DNA from: Protofrankia sp. CiT1
Lineage (GTDB): Bacteria > Actinomycetota > Actinomycetes > Frankiales > Frankiaceae
Direction: 5' to 3'
DNA: 64,000 nt
Assembly (NCBI RefSeq): GCF_917627385.1
Contig: NZ_CAKJTL010000073.1
Coordinates: 1-64,000, forward strand
The stretch's first letter is position 1. Each line of letters opens with the position of its first letter. Both the position numbers and the translations under genes were made by a program. Positions 18,199-63,030 of the stretch are shown in pieces. The notes below the pieces were generated by a model. It had not been told where the DNA came from, made no database searches, and saw only the letters and a list, made by a program, of their open reading frames with translations.

Positions 18199-18276
18199 CC
18201 GCGTCCCGCGGACACTCGGCCGACACCGTCGACATCCGGTAACCGACCACCACCCGCCGTCGCGGAGGCACCCACC

Positions 18277-18948
18277 ATGTACCAACCGATCATCGGCCAG
18301 AGCTCGAGCGACGCGCTGCCCGTCAGCCATTACGGGATCCCGCGTGTCATCGAGAAGACCAGCCGTGGTGATCTTTACCTTAATCCTTATGAGAAGCTGC
18401 TGCGGGAACGTATCGTTTTCCTCGGTATCCCGATCGATGACCTTTCCGCGAACGACGTGATGGCGCAGCTGCTTTTCCTGGAGTCCGAGGACCCCGACCG
18501 GGATATTTCGATCTATATAAACTCACCGGGTGGATCGTTCACCTCGTTGACCGCTATTTACGACACGATGCAGTTTGTCCGCCCGGACATCCAGACGATC
18601 TGCATGGGCCAGGCGGCATCCGCGGCCGCGGTGCTGCTCACAGCGGGGACACCGGGGAAGCGTTTCGCGCTGGAGAACAGCCGTATCCTGCTGCACCAGC
18701 CCTCTGGGCAGGGCGAGGGACAGTCCAGCGACATCGAGATTCAGGCCAGGGAGATCCTGCGGATGCGCTCCCTGCTGGAGCGGATGCTCGCCAGGCACAC
18801 CAGGCACACCGAGGAAGAGATCCGTCGGGACATCGAGCGGGACAAGATTTTCAGCGCGGCCGAGGCGCAGGAGTACGGGTTGATCGACGAGGTCATCCGG
18901 ACCCGCAAGTCGTCGCAGCTGTTGGCGGCGCCGGCAGCGGGCCGTTAG
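18277..18948 (+). CDS. clpP2: ATP-dependent Clp protease proteolytic subunit 2
   Basis: 223 residues with catalytic Ser115 ([11 protein letters not shown]), His140 (LLHQPSG) and Asp189 (RRDIERD). The N-terminal extension of about 30 residues relative to E. coli ClpP is common in the second actinobacterial paralogue and is processed in others. The ATG start is preceded by GCGGAGGCACCC. It is the second subunit of the ClpP1P2 peptidase. The gene is followed by a 715 bp spacer filled largely by tandem hairpin repeats. Confidence 0.97.
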
Positions 18949-18971
18949 CAGCGGGAACTGGGGGGTCCGGT

Positions 18972-19302
18972 GGCCAAAGGCGGCGCGATGCTGGTTTTTC
19001 GCGTCGCCGGAGGCCTGGGTTGGGCTGGCTGGGCCAAAGGCGACGCGATGATGGTTTTTCGCGTCGCCGGAGGCCTGAAGGCTGGCTGGGCCAAAGGCGG
19101 CGCGATGATGGTTCCGCGTCGCCGGAGGCCTGAAGGCTGGCTGGGCCAAAGGCGGCGCGATGCTGCTTTTTCGCGTCGCCGGAGGCCTGGGTTGGGCTGG
19201 CTGGGCCAAAGGCGGCGCGATGATGGTTTTTCGCGTCGCCGGAGGCCTGAAGGCTGGCTGGGCCAAAGGCGGCGCGATGATGGTTCCGCGTCGCCGGAGG
19301 CC
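18972..19302. repeat. Tandem hairpin repeat array, six units in two 172-bp super-units
   Basis: Units start with GGCCAAAGG at 18972, 19032, 19089, 19144, 19204 and 19261 and are 60, 57, 55, 60, 57 and about 42 bp. Units 1-3 and 4-6 are almost identical blocks (one difference each between 1/4 and 2/5), so the triplet was recently duplicated. Each unit holds an inverted repeat GGCG(G/A)CGCGA ... TCGCGTCGCC. In the 55 bp unit two loop bases are missing but the stem is kept. It lies between clpP2 and clpX and could affect clpX expression or RNA ends. Confidence 0.8.
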
Positions 19303-19460
19303 GGGCCGGGTGCCCCGTCAGCGTTGTGCAAAGGCCCTGTCCGGACGGCACGGACGCGTGATGATCTGCCCGATGACCGTGACTGACCTACACGAGCCGC
19401 ACGATAGGGCTCTCACTGGACGGCTTCAGGGGGTACGGTCCCCACGGGGAGGCGGACAGC

Positions 19461-19550
19461 CAGCTCAAAGCCGTCGGCGTCAGGGCACAGCCATCGGTGG
19501 CGGGTAGACGCGGATGCGGATACACAGCCCAAAGCCGCTGGCGTCATGGC
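19461..19550. repeat. Imperfect direct repeat in clpX leader
   Basis: CAGCTCAAAGCCGTCGGCGT (19461-19480) recurs as CAGCCCAAAGCCGCTGGCGT (19525-19544), each followed by CA(G/T)GGC, in the 280 bp before clpX. Origin unknown. Confidence 0.5.
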
Positions 19551-19663
19551 GCGGCCGCTGCCGGCGGAGGGCAGGATAGTAACAGACAGGCGACGACCGG
19601 GCGGCTTAGCCGCCCCTGACCTGCAGGCGACACCATCGTCTGGACGAAGGGACTGAGTCCTCG

Positions 19664-20953
19664 GTGGCACGCATAGGTGACGGCGGTGATCTGCTCAAGT
19701 GCTCGTTCTGCGGCAAGTCCCAGAAGCAGGTGAAGAAGCTCATCGCCGGGCCCGGCGTCTACATCTGCGACGAGTGCATCGATCTCTGTAACGAGATCAT
19801 TGAAGAGGAGCTGTCGGAGTCCTCGGATCTCAAGTGGGACGAGCTGCCGAAGCCGCGCGAGATCTACGAGTTCCTGGACGGCTACGTGGTTGGTCAGGAA
19901 CAGGCCAAGAAGACCCTGTCGGTTGCTGTCTACAACCATTACAAGCGAGTCCAGGTGGGTGGTGGCGCGGGTAGCGACGCCAAGGGCGATGTTGAACTGG
20001 CGAAGAGCAACATCCTTCTGCTGGGCCCCACCGGATGCGGCAAGACGCTGCTGGCGCAGACCTTGGCCCGGATGCTCAACGTCCCGTTCGCGATCGCCGA
20101 CGCGACCGCGCTCACCGAGGCCGGTTATGTCGGTGAAGACGTTGAGAACATTCTGCTCAAACTCATCCAGGCCGCCGACTATGATGTCAAAAAAGCCGAG
20201 ACCGGCATCATTTATATTGATGAGGTCGACAAGATCGCGCGTAAGTCGGAGAATCCGAGTATCACCCGGGATGTCTCTGGCGAGGGTGTCCAGCAGGCGC
20301 TGTTGAAGATACTGGAGGGAACGACCGCGAGCGTTCCGCCGCAGGGCGGCCGCAAGCATCCGCATCAGGAGTTCATCCAGATCGATACTACGAACGTCCT
20401 GTTCATCGTCGGTGGGGCTTTTGCCGGGCTTGATCGGATAATCGATTCACGGATCGGTAAGAAATCGCTTGGATTCCGCGCGGTCCTGCACGGCAAGGAT
20501 GATCCGGATATTCCCAACGTCTTCACCGACGTCATGCCCGAGGATCTGCTCAAGTACGGCATGATTCCCGAGTTCATCGGTCGGCTGCCAGTGATCACCA
20601 GTGTGTCCAGCCTCGATCGGGAGGCGCTCATCCGCATCCTCACCGAGCCGAAGAACGCCTTGGTCCGGCAGTACAAGAAGTTGTTTGAGCTGGATAATGT
20701 TGATCTTGATTTTACGGGTGACGCCCTGGATGCGATCGCGGACCAGGCGATACTGCGGGGAACCGGCGCCCGTGGGCTGCGGGCGATCATGGAGGAAGTC
20801 CTGCTGTCGGTCATGTACGACATACCGAGCCGCAAGGACGTCGCCCGGGCGGTGGTGACCCGCGAGGTCGTTCTTGAGCACGTCAACCCGACGCTCGTGC
20901 CGCGTGACGTCGCCGCATCCAAGCGGAGTCCCCGCCAGGAGAAGTCGGCCTGA
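19664..20953 (+). CDS. clpX: ATP-dependent Clp protease ATP-binding subunit ClpX
   Basis: 429 residues. The N-terminal zinc-binding domain has Cys13, Cys16, Cys35 and Cys38 (CSFC ... CDEC). The AAA+ domain has Walker A GPTGCGKT (121-128), Walker [11 protein letters not shown], a sensor-II region ([13 protein letters not shown]) and the ClpP-binding IGF-like loop region. ClpX unfolds tagged substrates and feeds them to ClpP. GTG start. Its stop codon overlaps the folC start by one base (TGATG), so the two are coupled; in many Actinobacteria valS lies between them. Confidence 0.97.
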
Positions 20954-22308
20954 TGAGCAGCCGGCCTGGCATCCCGGCGGACGCCGACGCCGACACAGCC
21001 GGGCTCGCCCGGGTGGAGAAGGCGCTGACCGAACGCTTCCCGCACCGGATGCTGCCCGATCTGGACCGTATGCGCGATCTCGTCGATCTGCTGGGCCAGC
21101 CACAGCGTGCCTACCCCTCGATCCACCTGACGGGGACCAACGGCAAGACCTCCACCGCCCGCATGGTGGATTCGTTGCTGTGCGCCTTCGGGATCAGACC
21201 TGGCCGTTATACCTCCCCGCATCTGGAGAGCGTGACCGAACGTATCTGCCTGGCCGGTCGCCCCGCGCCCGCAGCCACCTTCACCCAGGCGTACGACGAC
21301 GTCATCCCCTACGTTGAGCTCGTTGACAGCAGGCATCCCGAACGGGTCACCTTCTTCGAGCTGCTGACCGCGATGGCGTTCGCCGCCTTCGCCGACGCGC
21401 CGGTCGATGTCGGTGTCATCGAGGTTGGTATGGGCGGGAGCTGGGACGCGACCAACGTCCTGGATGCCGGGGTGGCAGTGGTGACCCCGATCTCCCTCGA
21501 CCATCGGGAGCTCGGTGCCACGCCTGGCGCGGTCGCGGGGGAGAAGGCCGGCATCATTCACGCCGGTGCGCTCGTCGTGCTTGCCCAGCAGCCGTTGGAA
21601 GCGGCGGAGGTGCTGTTGCGCCGAGCCGGTGAGGTCGGCGCGACGGTGGCACGCGAGGGACTGGAATTCGGGGTCCTCGACCGTGATATCGCCGTTGGTG
21701 GCCAGTTGGTTGCCATCCGTGGGCTCGGCGGTGTCTATGAGGACCTGTTGCTGCCCCTGCACGGCGCGCATCAGGCTCACAACGCCGCATGCGCGCTCGC
21801 GGCGGTTGAGGGGTTCCTCGGCGGCGGCCGTGAGATTCTCGACATCGACGCCGTACGCGCTGGGTTTGCGCAGGCTGACTCGCCGGGCCGGCTGGAAGTC
21901 GTCCGGCGCTCGCCAACGGTCCTGCTCGACGGCGCGCACAACGTCGCGGGCGCGCATGCGCTCGTCGCCGCGCTGGAGGAGGCCTTCAGCTTCGATCATC
22001 TGGTCGGTGTCGTGGGGATACTCGCGGACAAGGACGCCGCCGGCATTCTGGCCGCGCTGGAGCCGGTGTTGCACGCCGTGGTCATCACTCAGAGTGGGTC
22101 GTCGCGGGCAATGCCGTTGGATGACCTTGCCGCGATCGCCGTGGATCTGTTCGGTGCCGACCGGGTGGAGGTTGCCTCGCGTCTCGATGACGCTCTCGAC
22201 GCGGGTGTCCGGCTGGCGGAGGAGGACTCGCACCTCGCCGGTACCGCGGTGTTGGTGACCGGTTCACTTGTGACGGTGGGAGAGGCTCGCCGCCTTCTGC
22301 GTCGCTGA
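20953..22308 (+). CDS. folC: Folylpolyglutamate synthase / dihydrofolate synthase
   Basis: A 451-residue Mur-ligase-like enzyme. It has the ATP loop GTNGKTST (61-68), YTSPHLESVTERI, the VGVIEVGMGGSWDATN metal and substrate region, the LDHRELGAT motif and DGAHNVAGA. It adds glutamates to folates and, in bifunctional forms, makes dihydrofolate from dihydropteroate. Length and motifs agree with the family. Its translation is coupled to clpX. Confidence 0.95.
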   Translation: MSSRPGIPADADADTAGLARVEKALTERFPHRMLPDLDRMRDLVDLLGQPQRAYPSIHLTGTNGKTSTARMVDSLLCAFGIRPGRYTSPHLESVTERICLAGRPAPAATFTQAYDDVIPYVELVDSRHPERVTFFELLTAMAFAAFADAPVDVGVIEVGMGGSWDATNVLDAGVAVVTPISLDHRELGATPGAVAGEKAGIIHAGALVVLAQQPLEAAEVLLRRAGEVGATVAREGLEFGVLDRDIAVGGQLVAIRGLGGVYEDLLLPLHGAHQAHNAACALAAVEGFLGGGREILDIDAVRAGFAQADSPGRLEVVRRSPTVLLDGAHNVAGAHALVAALEEAFSFDHLVGVVGILADKDAAGILAALEPVLHAVVITQSGSSRAMPLDDLAAIAVDLFGADRVEVASRLDDALDAGVRLAEEDSHLAGTAVLVTGSLVTVGEARRLLRR

Positions 22309-22325
22309 CGGGTAGGTTGCAACTG

Positions 22326-22490
22326 TGCCAAAGGCCGCGTGATCGTGTCCTTTCGCGCTGTCGGAGGCGTGAGGGCTGTGTGACTGTGCCAACGGTGGCT
22401 CGATCATGGTTTTTTCGTGCAGCCGAGGGGCATGAAGATCGTGTAACCGGGTCAACGGCGGTGCGATCGTTCCTCCCGTGCCGCCCGCGG
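22326..22490. repeat. Decayed three-unit version of the hairpin repeat
   Basis: Units begin GTGCCAAAGG (22326), GTGCCAACGG (22387) and GGTCAACGG (22450), with unit lengths of about 61 and 63 bp. They keep the layout of the 18972 array: CAAAGG, then CGATCATGGTTTTTTCG, then GCCGAGGGGCATGAAG. The inverted-repeat stems are mostly broken. They fill the folC-ndk spacer and appear to be an older relic of the same repeat family. Confidence 0.6.
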
Positions 22491-22542
22491 CTGCATGGCT
22501 CTGGTCCCACACCTGCCCATCTGAGTGAGTAGAAGGAGTTCC

Positions 22543-22956
22543 GTGTCAGTCGAACGCACACTCGTGCTGGTCAAGCCCGACGGCGTGAGCCGTGGCCTCG
22601 TCGGTGAGGTCGTTGGTCGGCTGGAGCGCAAGGGTCTGGCCTTGGTCGCGCTTGAGCTGCGCAGGCTGGAGCGCTCGGTGGCCGAGGTCCACTACGCCGA
22701 GCACGCGGCCAAGCCGTTTTTTGGCGAGCTGGTCGACTTCATCGTTTCCAGCCCGTTGGTCGCGTTGGTTGTCCAGGGGCCGCGGGCGATCGAGGCGGTG
22801 CGCGGCCTGATCGGCGCCACCGACCCGGTCAAGGCGGCTCCGGGATCCCTGCGTGGCGACCATGCTCTGGAGATCGGACAGAACCTCGTCCATGGTTCCG
22901 ACTCGCCGGAGTCCGCCAAGCGTGAGATCGACTTGTTTTTCCCCGGGTTGATCTGA
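22543..22956 (+). CDS. ndk: Nucleoside diphosphate kinase
   Basis: GTG at 22543 with AAGGAG 5 bp upstream gives 137 residues, the normal Ndk length. The frame opens with [20 protein letters not shown] and contains the active-site histidine His117 in [12 protein letters not shown]. The enzyme transfers phosphate from ATP to other NDPs through phospho-His. A long hairpin follows the stop codon, so the gene probably ends a transcript. Confidence 0.96.
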
Positions 22957-22968
22957 TTATTTCTGACT

Positions 22969-23021
22969 GGTCCGGCATCGAAGGCCAGGGCGGCTCGCCC
23001 TATGGCCGACGGTGCCGGACC
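22969..23021 (+). terminator. Hairpin downstream of ndk
   Basis: GGTCCGGCA (22969-22977) pairs with TGCCGGACC (23013-23021). Inside, GGCCAGGGCG pairs with CGCCCTATGGCC with a bulge. This gives a long two-part stem starting 13 bp after the ndk stop codon. There is no T tract, as is common for actinobacterial terminators. Confidence 0.6.
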
Positions 23022-32617: not shown

Positions 32618-35503
32618 GTGCCCGATGACATCGTGACAGACTCCGATGAGACACCGACCACTCGTTCCGCCCCGCGGCGGCGGCGTGCCGCCGGACGGTC
32701 CGCGGGACCTCCGCCGGACGTCTCGACCGGGTCCTCGCCGGAGGCTCCGCAGGTGAGCGACCCCGTTGCTGACAGCGTTGCCCCAGGTGGCGTTACCCCG
32801 GGCACGGACGTTCATCCGCCGGAACCACCCCCGCGATCCGTGGTCGGTATCGAGCCGCCGCCGGTCCCGTTCCTAGCTGATCTTACCGGTGTTCCACCGG
32901 GGGCCGTTGCCATGCCCACGAGCGGGGATGGCAGTCCACCGGCACGGCCGGAGACGCGGCTGCGCCGTGGGCGGGCGGTCACCATGGTGACCTTCCAGGC
33001 GCCCGACACCGCGGCTCTTGACCTTGTGTCTCGCCGCCGGCGGCGCGGCGTCTCGCCGTTCGACACCGACACGGCTGTCGCGGGCGCCGCCGGCAGGTCG
33101 TCCGACACCGGATTCGGGCCGGCCAGTACGGATCGGGGGAACCAGCGGCCAGGGTTCGGGATCGTGCTCGACGCCGGTGACGAGCACGATCCCGAACCCG
33201 GCACCGCCATGGCCTATGCCGACAGCGACGAGGATGAGATCTCCAGCGCCGCCGTGCCCGACGACGGCGACTGCGACGGGAGCTCGACGCGGCGCCGTCG
33301 CAGAGGCCGCCGGGGCAGGGGGCGTGCGCGTGTCGACGAGGAGGCCGAGGGCGCTGACGATACGTACCCGGTTGCCTTCGAGCGGTCCGGCGCGCGCTCG
33401 GATGGGTTCGACGAGAGCGACAGCCCCGGTCGCCCGGACCGGGCCGAGACCGACGATCCCCACGACTCCGGTGATGCCGATGCCGCCGGGCTGGTGGCAG
33501 CGGGCGGCGCGGACGGGTACGACGACGAGCAGCCGCAGGGAAGTTCCCGGCGGCGCCGGCGCCGGCGCCGCCGGGACGGTGCCGCGATCGTGGACGACGC
33601 GGCCCCGGACGACCCGCCGGCCACGGTCGTTCATGTCCGCGAAAGCCGTGTCCGGGACGACGAGGTGCGCGGGGTCAGCGGCTCGACGCGGTTGGAGGCG
33701 AAGCGCCAGCGCCGCAAGGAGGGCAGGGACAGCGGCCGCCGCCGGCCGCCGATCGTTACCGAAGCGGAGTTCCTGGCCCGGCGCGAAGCGGTTGAACGGC
33801 GCATGGTCGTGCGCAACGCCGGTGACCGCACCCAGATCGCGGTGCTTGAGGACGGGGTGCTTGTCGAGCATTTCGTGACGAGGGCGAGCTCCTGGTCGTA
33901 TGCGGGGAACGTGTATCTCGGCCGGGTGCAGAACGTGCTCGCCAGCATGGAGGCGGCATTCGTTGACGTCGGCAAGGGGCGCAACGCCGTCCTGTACGCC
34001 GGAGAGGTCAACTACGACGCCTCCGGGCTCGACGGGCGGCCTCGTAAGATCGAGCAGGTGCTGAAGTCAGGCCAGTCGATCGTCGTCCAGGTTTCCAAGG
34101 ACCCGATGGGGCACAAGGGCGCCCGTCTGACCAGCCAGGTGAGCCTGCCAGGCCGCTATCTGGTCTATGTGCCGGACGGGCAGAACGCGGGGATCAGCCG
34201 GAAGCTTCCGGATACCGAACGCGCCCGCCTGAAGACGATCCTGAAGAAGATCACTCCGGAGAACGGCGGCGTGATCGTTCGGACCGCGGCCGAGGGCGCC
34301 AGCGAGCAGGAGCTCGCCCGTGACGTCGCCCGGCTGTCGGCCCAGTGGGAGGACATCCGCCGGAAGGCAGCGAAGGCCAGCGCTCCCGCGCTGCTCTACG
34401 GCGAGCCCGATCTCGTGATCAGGGTGATTCGGGACATCTTCAACGAGGATTTCGCCGAGCTGGTCGTCCAGGGAGACGAGGAAGCCGCGATGATCGAGGA
34501 CTACGTCGACATGGTGGCGCCGGACCTGCGCGATCGGGTCCGGCGACAGACCGGCACGGCCGACGTGTTCGACACGTACCGCGTCGACGAGCAGCTTGCC
34601 AAGGCCCTCGACCGCAAGGTGTGGCTGCCCTCGGGCGGGTCGCTTGTGATCGATCGTACCGAGGCGATGACCGTTATCGATGTGAACACCGGCAAGTTCA
34701 CCGGCAAGGGCGGCAACCTCGAGGAGACGGTCACCAAGAACAACCTGGAGGCCGCCGAAGAGATCGTCCGCCAGCTCCGGCTCCGCGACATCGGCGGGAT
34801 CATCGTCATCGACTTCATCGACATGGTCTTGGAGAGCAACCGCGAACTTGTGCTGCGGCGCCTGACCGAATGCCTCGGCCGGGACCGTACCCGGCATCAG
34901 GTCGCGGAGGTCACGAGCCTCGGGCTGGTGCAGATGACCCGCAAGCGGGTGGGCCAAGGGCTGCTCGAGGCCTACAGCGAGCCCTGTGCTCACTGTGGCG
35001 GGCGTGGTGTCATCGTGCATCTGGACGGTCAGGCCGCACCGCCCGCGCGAAGCTCCGGGGCGTCCAGCCCCGCGGTACCGGGGCCGCCGGCGGCAGGCAC
35101 GGCGGCCGAGGCCGGCCCGAGCGGCGAGGCCCCAGACGCCACTGTCGTGGAGGCGGGCTCCGTGACCACGGATACGGGCTTCTCCCGTACCAGACCGGTT
35201 GAGGCGACCGTGCCCGGGGACGCGGCCAGCCCCAGCCCAACGGACAACGCCGCGATGAGCAACGCCACAACAAGCAATGAAGCGACGGACAACGCCGCAA
35301 CGGACAACGCCACGACGGACAACGCCACGACGAGCAATGGCGCGACGAGCAACGGCACGAAGGACGACGGCGGGCCGATCAGTTCGGCGCAGCCGTCATC
35401 GAACGCTGCCCGATCCACCGGGGCTCGCGCGACCGGTCGCCGGCGGGCGTCGCGCGCGGTCGCGGCACCGCAGGAGAGCGGTGAGGCCGCCCACACCGGG
35501 TAG
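32618..35503 (+). CDS. rne: Ribonuclease E/G family protein
   Basis: 961 residues. The N-terminal third (about 1-380) is acidic and basic low-complexity sequence with runs such as GSSRRRRRRRR. From about 395 comes the catalytic part: the S1 domain (NVYLGRVQNVLASMEAAFVD), an RNase H-like and 5'-sensor region, the catalytic DVNTGKFTGKGG and DFIDM aspartates (about 686-735) and the zinc link CAHCGG (about 789). The C-terminal tail carries a TDNAT-type pentapeptide repeat. It processes rRNA and mRNA. The core order matches other actinobacterial RNase E proteins. Confidence 0.94.
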   Translation: MPDDIVTDSDETPTTRSAPRRRRAAGRSAGPPPDVSTGSSPEAPQVSDPVADSVAPGGVTPGTDVHPPEPPPRSVVGIEPPPVPFLADLTGVPPGAVAMPTSGDGSPPARPETRLRRGRAVTMVTFQAPDTAALDLVSRRRRRGVSPFDTDTAVAGAAGRSSDTGFGPASTDRGNQRPGFGIVLDAGDEHDPEPGTAMAYADSDEDEISSAAVPDDGDCDGSSTRRRRRGRRGRGRARVDEEAEGADDTYPVAFERSGARSDGFDESDSPGRPDRAETDDPHDSGDADAAGLVAAGGADGYDDEQPQGSSRRRRRRRRRDGAAIVDDAAPDDPPATVVHVRESRVRDDEVRGVSGSTRLEAKRQRRKEGRDSGRRRPPIVTEAEFLARREAVERRMVVRNAGDRTQIAVLEDGVLVEHFVTRASSWSYAGNVYLGRVQNVLASMEAAFVDVGKGRNAVLYAGEVNYDASGLDGRPRKIEQVLKSGQSIVVQVSKDPMGHKGARLTSQVSLPGRYLVYVPDGQNAGISRKLPDTERARLKTILKKITPENGGVIVRTAAEGASEQELARDVARLSAQWEDIRRKAAKASAPALLYGEPDLVIRVIRDIFNEDFAELVVQGDEEAAMIEDYVDMVAPDLRDRVRRQTGTADVFDTYRVDEQLAKALDRKVWLPSGGSLVIDRTEAMTVIDVNTGKFTGKGGNLEETVTKNNLEAAEEIVRQLRLRDIGGIIVIDFIDMVLESNRELVLRRLTECLGRDRTRHQVAEVTSLGLVQMTRKRVGQGLLEAYSEPCAHCGGRGVIVHLDGQAAPPARSSGASSPAVPGPPAAGTAAEAGPSGEAPDATVVEAGSVTTDTGFSRTRPVEATVPGDAASPSPTDNAAMSNATTSNEATDNAATDNATTDNATTSNGATSNGTKDDGGPISSAQPSSNAARSTGARATGRRRASRAVAAPQESGEAAHTG
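35240..35359 (+). repeat. 15-bp tandem repeat inside rne, 8 copies
   Basis: Eight in-frame 15 bp units, of the type ACGGACAACGCCACG, encode T-(D/S)-N-x-(A/T) pentapeptides in the disordered C-terminal tail of RNase E. The length is likely variable between strains. Confidence 0.75.
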
Positions 35504-61347: not shown

Positions 61348-61580
61348 CAGGTAGCCTCCTCGAGTCGGGATTAACAGAATAAGAACAGCGTAAGAACAGA
61401 ATAGAAACGGATAGGGGAAACGGGAACTGGACGAGAATGAGGAGCAACCGGCAACAGGGATGTGAGCATGAGCTGATCTGGGCGGGGCGCGGGCGTCGAT
61501 GCCGGATCATGGCGACGGCGAGCCCCGGCGAGTACGTGGTCAGCCTACGGCGATGGCCGGTGGCCCTGGCCCGGCGGGAC
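61348..61580. other. pgm promoter region, AT-rich
   Basis: A divergent spacer. 61370-61420 is the most AT-rich stretch of the window; TAAGAACAG occurs twice, 11 bp apart (61380, 61391), and likely contains the pgm promoter on the minus strand. No gene. Confidence 0.45.
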
Positions 61581-61664
61581 GCGGCGTTCCTCGCGGCGTT
61601 CCTTGCGGCGTTCCTTGCGGCGTTCCTTGCGGCGTTCCTTGCGGCGTTCCTTGCGGCGTTCCTC
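61581..61664. repeat. 12-bp tandem repeat, 7 copies, upstream of nadD
   Basis: Seven copies of GCGGCGTTCCT(T/C), each exactly 12 bp, from 61581 to 61664. In the frame that continues into nadD each unit reads A-A-F-L, a hydrophobic helix. Translation is not shown, because nadD has a good start at 61791. Confidence 0.75.
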
Positions 61665-61790
61665 GTGGCCGGTGGCTACAGGCTGGATTTCCGCCGCTAT
61701 GCCCGGTGCGCTCGGTCCGGGCCGTTGGGCGCGGATGTGATACTTCCCGGAGAAGTCGAAATCACGGTGTGCTCCCGTTACGGTCCGTCC

Positions 61791-62399
61791 GTGAGGCTCG
61801 GGGTGATGGGCGGGACCTTTGATCCGGTACATAACGGTCATCTGGTCGCCGCCAGTGAGGTCGCGGCACTGTTCGATCTGGACGAGGTGGTCTTTGTGCC
61901 GAGCGGGCGTCCGTGGCAGAAGGCGGACAGAGAGGTGTCGCCAGCCGAGGACAGGTATCTGATGACCTTCCTTGCGACGGCGGGCAATCCACAGTTCACC
62001 GTCAGCCGGATTGACATCGACCGGAGCGGCCCAACCTACACCATTGACACCCTGCGGGACCTGCGCCTCGTGCGGCCGCGGGCCAAACTGTTCTTCATCA
62101 CCGGGGCGGACGCGCTGGCACAGATCCTCAGCTGGCGCAACGTCCGGGAGCTGTTCGGGCTGGCTCATTTCGTCGGGGTCACCCGGCCCGGCTACCAACT
62201 GGAGCTCGACGCGAGCCTACCGGGTGACGCGGTCAGCCTCCTGGAGGTTCCGGCGTTGACGATCTCCTCTTCCGACATCCGTGCCCGGGTGAGCCGCGGG
62301 GCGCCCATCTGGTACCTCACCCCGGACGGGGTGGTGCGCTTTATTGCCAAAAGCGGGCTGTACCGACCGCGCGACCCAGCGGCGACGCCCGTCCCATGA
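61791..62399 (+). CDS. nadD: Nicotinate-nucleotide adenylyltransferase
   Basis: GTG at 61791 gives 202 residues, normal for NadD, reading [18 protein letters not shown] (nucleotidyl-transferase HxGH loop) and [10 protein letters not shown] (second substrate motif). It makes deamido-NAD in NAD synthesis. No clear ribosome-binding site is seen. The frame is open back to 61437 and includes the 12 bp repeats, so a longer form cannot be excluded. proA, usually its neighbour, is about 15 kb upstream. Confidence 0.93.
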
Positions 62400-62622
62400 T
62401 CTTGTCGCCTGCCCGCATGGCGTGGCCAGGGTACCGGTACGGGTCACAATCAGGCACGTGAAAGCGTTGGGTATGTCAGGCTGGATGGGCGGTACGCAAA
62501 CCGCTCCGGCGCATACGATCGTTAACCGTAGTCGACGGGCATGCCCCGCCGCCAGCGGCTGCGCGATCATGTTTTTGACGCGCAGCCGGAAGCCCGGTGA
62601 CCCAGTCAGGAGAGATGTATTC

Positions 62623-63030
62623 GTGACCGCATCCCCGCGAGCCGTCGAACTCGCCCTCGAAGCCGCGCAGGCCGCGGCGGACAAGCTCGCCAGCGACATC
62701 GTCGTGCTGGACGTCAGCGAGCGTCTTGCTATCACGGACTGCTTCGTGGTCGTGTCCGCCGACACTGAACGGCAGGTCAAGGCCGTGGTTGATGGCGTCG
62801 AGGAGCAACTGCGCAGGCTCGGGGCCAAGCCGTTGCGCCGCGAGGGTGAACGCGAGGGACGCTGGGTGCTGCTCGACTTCTCCGATGTTGTGGTGCACGT
62901 ACAGCACGGTGAGGAGCGGACCTACTACGGACTCGAACGGCTCTGGAAGGACTGCCCGCGGATCGCCTTCGTCGACCGTGATCTTTCCCGGCATGTCGAA
63001 GCCGCTGGACCCGGTGTTGGTCGCTGGTGA
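62623..63030 (+). CDS. rsfS: Ribosome silencing factor
   Basis: GTG at 62623 with AGGAGAG upstream gives 135 residues: VTASPRAVELALEAAQAAAD, SDIVVLDVSERLAITDCFVV, RRLGAKPLRREGEREGRWVL and VHVQHGEERTYYGLERLW, the RsfS fold. It binds L14 and stops subunit joining in starvation. It is coupled to the next gene by a 4 bp overlap. Confidence 0.95.
   Translation: MTASPRAVELALEAAQAAADKLASDIVVLDVSERLAITDCFVVVSADTERQVKAVVDGVEEQLRRLGAKPLRREGEREGRWVLLDFSDVVVHVQHGEERTYYGLERLWKDCPRIAFVDRDLSRHVEAAGPGVGRW

Follow-up and report, generated by a model that had tools for sequence, protein, structure and literature searches.

A probable mobile, REP-like hairpin element of Frankiaceae, present in six head-to-tail copies between clpP2 and clpX of Protofrankia sp. 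CiT1

Several classes of short repeats and structured transcript ends are known from bacterial intergenic regions. Mycobacterial interspersed repetitive units (MIRUs) are actinobacterial, intergenic, tandem repeats which lie on the same strand and are aligned with transcription. To our knowledge, MIRUs are not known as covarying hairpins. MITEs are small non-autonomous insertions. REPs, with REPINs and BIMEs, are short dispersed palindromes of more than 100 copies, mostly located downstream of genes and clustered. REPs carry the tags GTAG and CGTC and form dimers mostly of opposite orientation, head-to-tail dimers being rare (PMC3733652). They are placed after genes, their ends supply TAG stop codons, and they occur in several phyla, Actinobacteria not among them (PMC3733652). 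A different kind of hairpin is found where transcripts end: a U-tract is lacking at 353 of 535 structured transcript ends of Streptomyces clavuligerus (PMC8269248). In this study, we report an array of hairpins between clpP2 and clpX of Protofrankia sp. CiT1. We consider it probable (about 0.72) that the array consists of a mobile, dispersed, REP-like element of Frankiaceae in six copies arranged head to tail. This element would insert at CYRG motifs and stop codons, grow in tandem and have a role at mRNA 3' ends.

The window, i.e. the whole stretch of DNA analysed, comprises 64,000 nt. On its plus strand clpP2 (18277-18948; Clp protease, Pfam PF00574, E 4e-77) ends 24 nt before six hairpin units (18972-19302, plus strand), which are followed after 362 nt by clpX (19664-20953, plus strand; Pfam zf-C4_ClpX and AAA_2). 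The units start at 18972, 19032, 19089, 19144, 19204 and 19261, spaced by 60, 57, 55, 60 and 57 nt, with 42 nt for the last copy. In TRF, the short unit scores 510 and is repeated 5.8 times, and a 172-bp unit is repeated 1.9 times with 98% matches. Unit 1 (18972-19015, 44 nt), unit 2 (19032-19075, 44 nt) and the shortened unit 3 (19089-19130, 42 nt) are recognised by their fold and by a covariance model (67.4, 67.9 and 61.7 bits). Their duplicates, recognised by the model, are unit 4 (19144-19187, 65.5 bits) and unit 5 (19204-19247, 68.6 bits), each with one change, and unit 6 (19261-19302, 42 nt, 61.7 bits). The two triplets of the 172-bp super-unit (18972-19130 and 19144-19302, both plus strand, repeat family D2) are 99% identical, differing at 2 positions in 159 nt. 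Unit number and spacing, the inverted repeat in each unit and a recent duplication of several units at once, all claimed in the initial annotation, are confirmed by the repeat search, TRF and folding.

In each unit a stem of 10 bp, or of 9 bp in the 42-nt units 3 and 6, carries a 10-nt T-rich loop, with folding energies of -25 to -29 kcal/mol. Beyond a conserved 3x3 internal loop (AAA/GGA), each hairpin is closed by an outer GGCC/GGCC helix, which had escaped the annotation. The 372-nt array region folds with z = -7.7, and a pattern allowing 3 mismatches matched 4 times in the window versus 0.00 times in 100 shuffles. Chance origin of the array is excluded. The annotation had further noted one shortened unit which kept its stem, and had seen in it a hint of selection on structure. 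The shortening is real, though it affects two units, one of which was copied from the other. Since the short unit was duplicated along with its triplet, it is weak evidence for selection; what does argue for selection on structure is the genome-wide family.

Outside the array, alignment shows a block 5' of clpX (19391-19446, plus strand, core GGGGTACGGTCCCCAC) which all five congeners keep and a Frankia alni MAG shares in part. This block is probably the clpX promoter or operator region. Because of this promoter-like block between array and gene, clpX may be independent of read-through.

Units of the Clp type are not restricted to this spacer. Across the 5.02-Mb genome as a whole, a DNA search revealed 13 places related to the Clp units, whose stem sequence differs from that of the window yet is self-complementary within each copy. 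The covariance search suggested by the annotation was done with a model built from 18 units and gave at least 122 hits in this genome, more than 100 of them with E <= 0.1; genome counts by this model are lower bounds, 150 of about 9,000 candidates having been scored. In the window, three diverged copies are found in the folC-ndk spacer (22326-22369, 22387-22431 and 22450-22492; 54.6, 46.9 and 38.9 bits) and a single copy (62550-62594, 46.9 bits) between a nadD-like gene (61509-62399) and rsfS (62623-63030), all on the plus strand. Hits numbered 62 to 149 in four genomes of the same genus and 0 to 75 elsewhere in the family, and were nearly absent from other families; with some of the compared genomes incomplete, the 44-nt hairpin element is essentially confined to Frankiaceae. 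The pattern of its 5' half alone had 157 hits in five genomes and, when reversed, none. The nearest named FolC relative belongs to a Frankia alni MAG (76% identical), whose clpP2-ndk region contains no element. Rfam models matched nowhere in 18200-23000 (E <= 1) or in six other loci (E <= 0.1), a plasmid search had no match, and no prior description of the element was found in Frankia papers; in the Dg1 genome paper, palindromes were merely counted by software. The element thus appears to be undescribed.

At L170:2038-2208 (C103:26937-27107 of this genome), three 63-bp copies lie in frame inside a gene (L170:1381-2370) and add a 21-residue repeat (GQRRRDNDPPASPEAPETEPY) to a protein without Pfam match. 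A longer form of the element occurs in the congener G001 at L342 (about 1500-1720 from the minus strand start), L345, L358, L359, L369, L372 and L265; its 5' half is kept and about 40-90 nt (TCCGGAAGCCGATCTGGGAGGTCCGG and variants) separate the CGCGCT arm from the tail. Possibly this form is ancestral and more complete, or else a composite. The window also contains two repeats of other kinds: inside the nadD-like gene (61581-61663) an almost perfect 12-bp tandem repeat with 6.9 copies of GCGGCGTTCCTT, in multiples of three, and at 35238-35369 degenerate nested tandem repeats of 15/30/45/60 bp (CAACGCCGCGACGAG), which possibly code for a repetitive protein segment.

The initial annotation had assigned the array a role specific to Clp, namely adjusting the ratio of ClpP to ClpX mRNA or binding a protein. 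The position of the array directly after clpP2 and ahead of clpX, as well as its strong fold, would suit such a function. However, the same element is present at more than 60 other loci of this genome. Moreover, the array is absent from the clpP2-clpX spacer of the congener G004, and in G001-G003 this place is taken by other sequence, in G001 with one copy on the opposite strand. Every unit being a single copy of a 44-nt element dispersed over the genome, the array is not a Clp feature and a Clp-specific role is very improbable. An effect of the array on local mRNA is possible.

Matched spacers of the congeners show how such arrays arise. In the uspA-cydA spacer, G004 is empty (ATCCG-CTGAAAGG) and G001 has a 65-bp insertion at the same point, made up of CTAGAC, the hairpin and a 15-nt tail, by which the stop codon of the upstream gene changes from TGA to TAG. 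L231, compared with G002 and G003, is a similar, less clean case, so the empty-site argument comprises one clean and one less clean example. In the folC-ndk spacer, the three diverged copies present here correspond to remnants only in G001 and, in G004, to two copies which are identical to each other and differ in stem from those here. These species differences show that arrays grow and become uniform locally, and the doubled triplet at Clp is, from its sequence, one instance of local array growth. The clean 65-bp empty site and the lineage-specific arrays show insertion and local tandem duplication. The folC-ndk spacers of G002 and G003 (L168, L169) carry a different short repeat of about 15-20 bp, GTTGGCCGACAGATG-like, seemingly unrelated to the hairpin family.

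Among the fetched loci, 174 of 195 sites are intergenic and 21 lie inside called genes, the calls coming from a simple hexamer-based caller which gave clpP1, clpP2, clpX and folC as in the list of open reading frames and placed the starts of tig and ndk slightly further downstream. Between codirectional genes the element is found 80 times in sense and 42 times, about a third, in antisense orientation (p = 7e-4; p-values are indicative, since related copies are not independent). Thirty sense sites start within 10 nt after a stop codon, where random positions within the same spacers gave an expectation of 5.8 and a maximum of 14 in 2000 trials. The hairpin is commonly preceded, at a distance of 2 nt, by a CYRG motif (CCAG, CTAG, CTGG, CCGG), and the near-stop sites use TAG in 19 of 27 cases versus 165 of 602 stops (27%) in the same loci. 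By its sequence, the CYRG motif can supply the TAG stop. A setting of orientation by the replication strand was rejected informally, both strands being used along single long G001 contigs.

In many respects the element resembles REPs. It is a high-copy intergenic short palindrome placed after genes and clustered, with stem subfamilies in which other complementary bases or G-T pairs are used, a tetranucleotide close to its foot, and ends that supply TAG stops, features in keeping with REPs as described (PMC3733652). It could accordingly be a true REP, mobilised by a RAYT (Y1 transposase) that was lost or went unrecognised. Unlike REPs, it carries CYRG 2 nt off the hairpin instead of GTAG or CGTC, and its 34 multi-copy arrays are all head-to-tail, none of mixed strand, whereas REPs favour opposite orientation. 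The host belongs to Actinobacteria, a phylum with none in the REP survey (PMC3733652). Furthermore, Y1_Tnp (PF01797) is absent from this genome (G000) and from the element-rich G007, G013 and G022; G005 has two Y1_Tnp genes and no detected element, and the Y1 genes of G001, G002 and G004 are not flanked by the element. A Y1/RAYT driver, absent or unlinked, was therefore rejected, and a true REP is unlikely. Because tag, orientation and transposase (GTAG class) disagree, we file the element as a REP-like variant and not as a REP.

The other repeat classes fit in part. Like MITEs, the element is a small non-autonomous insertion, but no partner transposon was found and no general target-site duplication is apparent: the flank match was 4.53 versus 4.04 when shuffled, and matches of at least 6 nt occurred at 10 sites versus 4.3 (maximum 11). 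Several of the long direct repeats resemble remnants of tandem copies. With MIRUs, compared by description, the element shares its actinobacterial host, intergenic position and tandem, same-strand arrangement.

The stems of the family have been rewritten while remaining paired. In an alignment of 69 sites (A4), 94.7% of stem cells pair, and there are 58 double-sided stem changes, versus 14.0 when shuffled and 2-3 when slid as a control. Between the ribosomal protein genes rpsQ and rplN, one or two paired hairpins with partly different stems exist in all five species. In the inner stem, G-U pairs outnumber A-C pairs by 46 to 5. Selection of sites by the covariance model was examined as the cause of this bias: choosing sites without structure, by the 5' half alone and with the 3' arm located via its end motif, reduced the bias and did not remove it (52 versus 21, p = 4e-4, in a set dominated by G001). 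Deamination of the sense strand was likewise rejected, as unpaired positions show C-to-T in 1 of 78 and G-to-A in 6 of 208 cases, small numbers as these are. Given this G·U excess on one strand, it is apparently this strand that is read as RNA. The sequences suggest that selection sees a single sense strand, most likely RNA, with single-stranded DNA of the same strand as the alternative, and that the folded RNA form of the element appears to be preserved by selection.

A contrasting explanation is that the element is selfish DNA only, without RNA effect, its palindrome being kept by template switching or by the need of a DNA enzyme. Its mobility and its very uneven distribution between congeners agree with this, and the G-T bias would also be compatible with a single-stranded DNA intermediate of the same strand. 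In addition, the third array unit at L174:2182-2225 is a perfect palindrome (GGTCAAAGG...CCTTTGACC) with a healed internal loop, which looks like template-switch correction; its neighbours keep the mismatch. The AAA/GGA loop is, however, unpaired in most copies, and template switching is unlikely to be the sole cause, because it would not maintain this conserved mismatch. The one-strand G-U excess, the sense bias and the lack of a C-to-T excess at unpaired positions also stand against purely selfish DNA, which we regard as a lesser possibility than a REP-like element with a role at mRNA 3' ends.

Such a role would differ from that of a canonical intrinsic terminator, which was rejected for want of a U-tract: one weak site was found versus a chance level of 0.8, and the Ts are in the loop, none 3' of the stem. 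A stable GC hairpin just after the stop codon without U-tract is what U-lacking (I-shaped) ends of high-GC actinobacteria also present, though these are neither a repeated sequence family nor mobile (PMC8269248). As most structured ends in S. clavuligerus lack a U-tract, hairpins with the stability of the Clp units are plausible 3'-end blocks or terminators. Could they be intrinsic terminators dedicated to operon ends and conserved as such? Their energy lies within the range of U-lacking terminators and they stand at operon junctions, that between rpsQ and rplN being an example shared by all five species. Against this, their presence at Clp and L176 is lineage-specific, the U-tract is missing, and the conserved loop and internal loop are not needed by a terminator; we consider dedicated terminators decidedly unlikely.

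For a mobile REP-like element we propose the following working. The element would insert beside a CYRG-type motif, frequently in sense and frequently at a stop codon or immediately behind one, and would then multiply through local tandem duplication, as in the triplet recently doubled at Clp. Upon transcription from the upstream gene, each copy would fold as a stable hairpin just past the coding region. The most likely effect of the hairpins would be to protect the mRNA 3' end from exonucleases, to end transcription without a U-tract, or both, and the six Clp hairpins in a row would mainly separate clpP2 mRNA from clpX.

These findings point to an abundant REP-like hairpin family in Frankiaceae, which are plant symbionts, within a phylum without REPs in the main REP survey (PMC3733652). 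Matched sites in five species show elements inserting at stop codons, arrays growing in tandem and stems which change in sequence yet stay paired. Since corresponding junctions of related species carry arrays of 0 to 6 copies, it can be measured directly how copy number affects mRNA ends. Tentatively, and with considerable doubt, the element may be a transposable 3'-UTR module which inserts in sense at stop codons, moves by other means than a Y1 transposase and is under selection as the folded RNA of the sense strand. If true, such a module would rebuild mRNA ends genome-wide, through a mobilising mechanism other than Y1.
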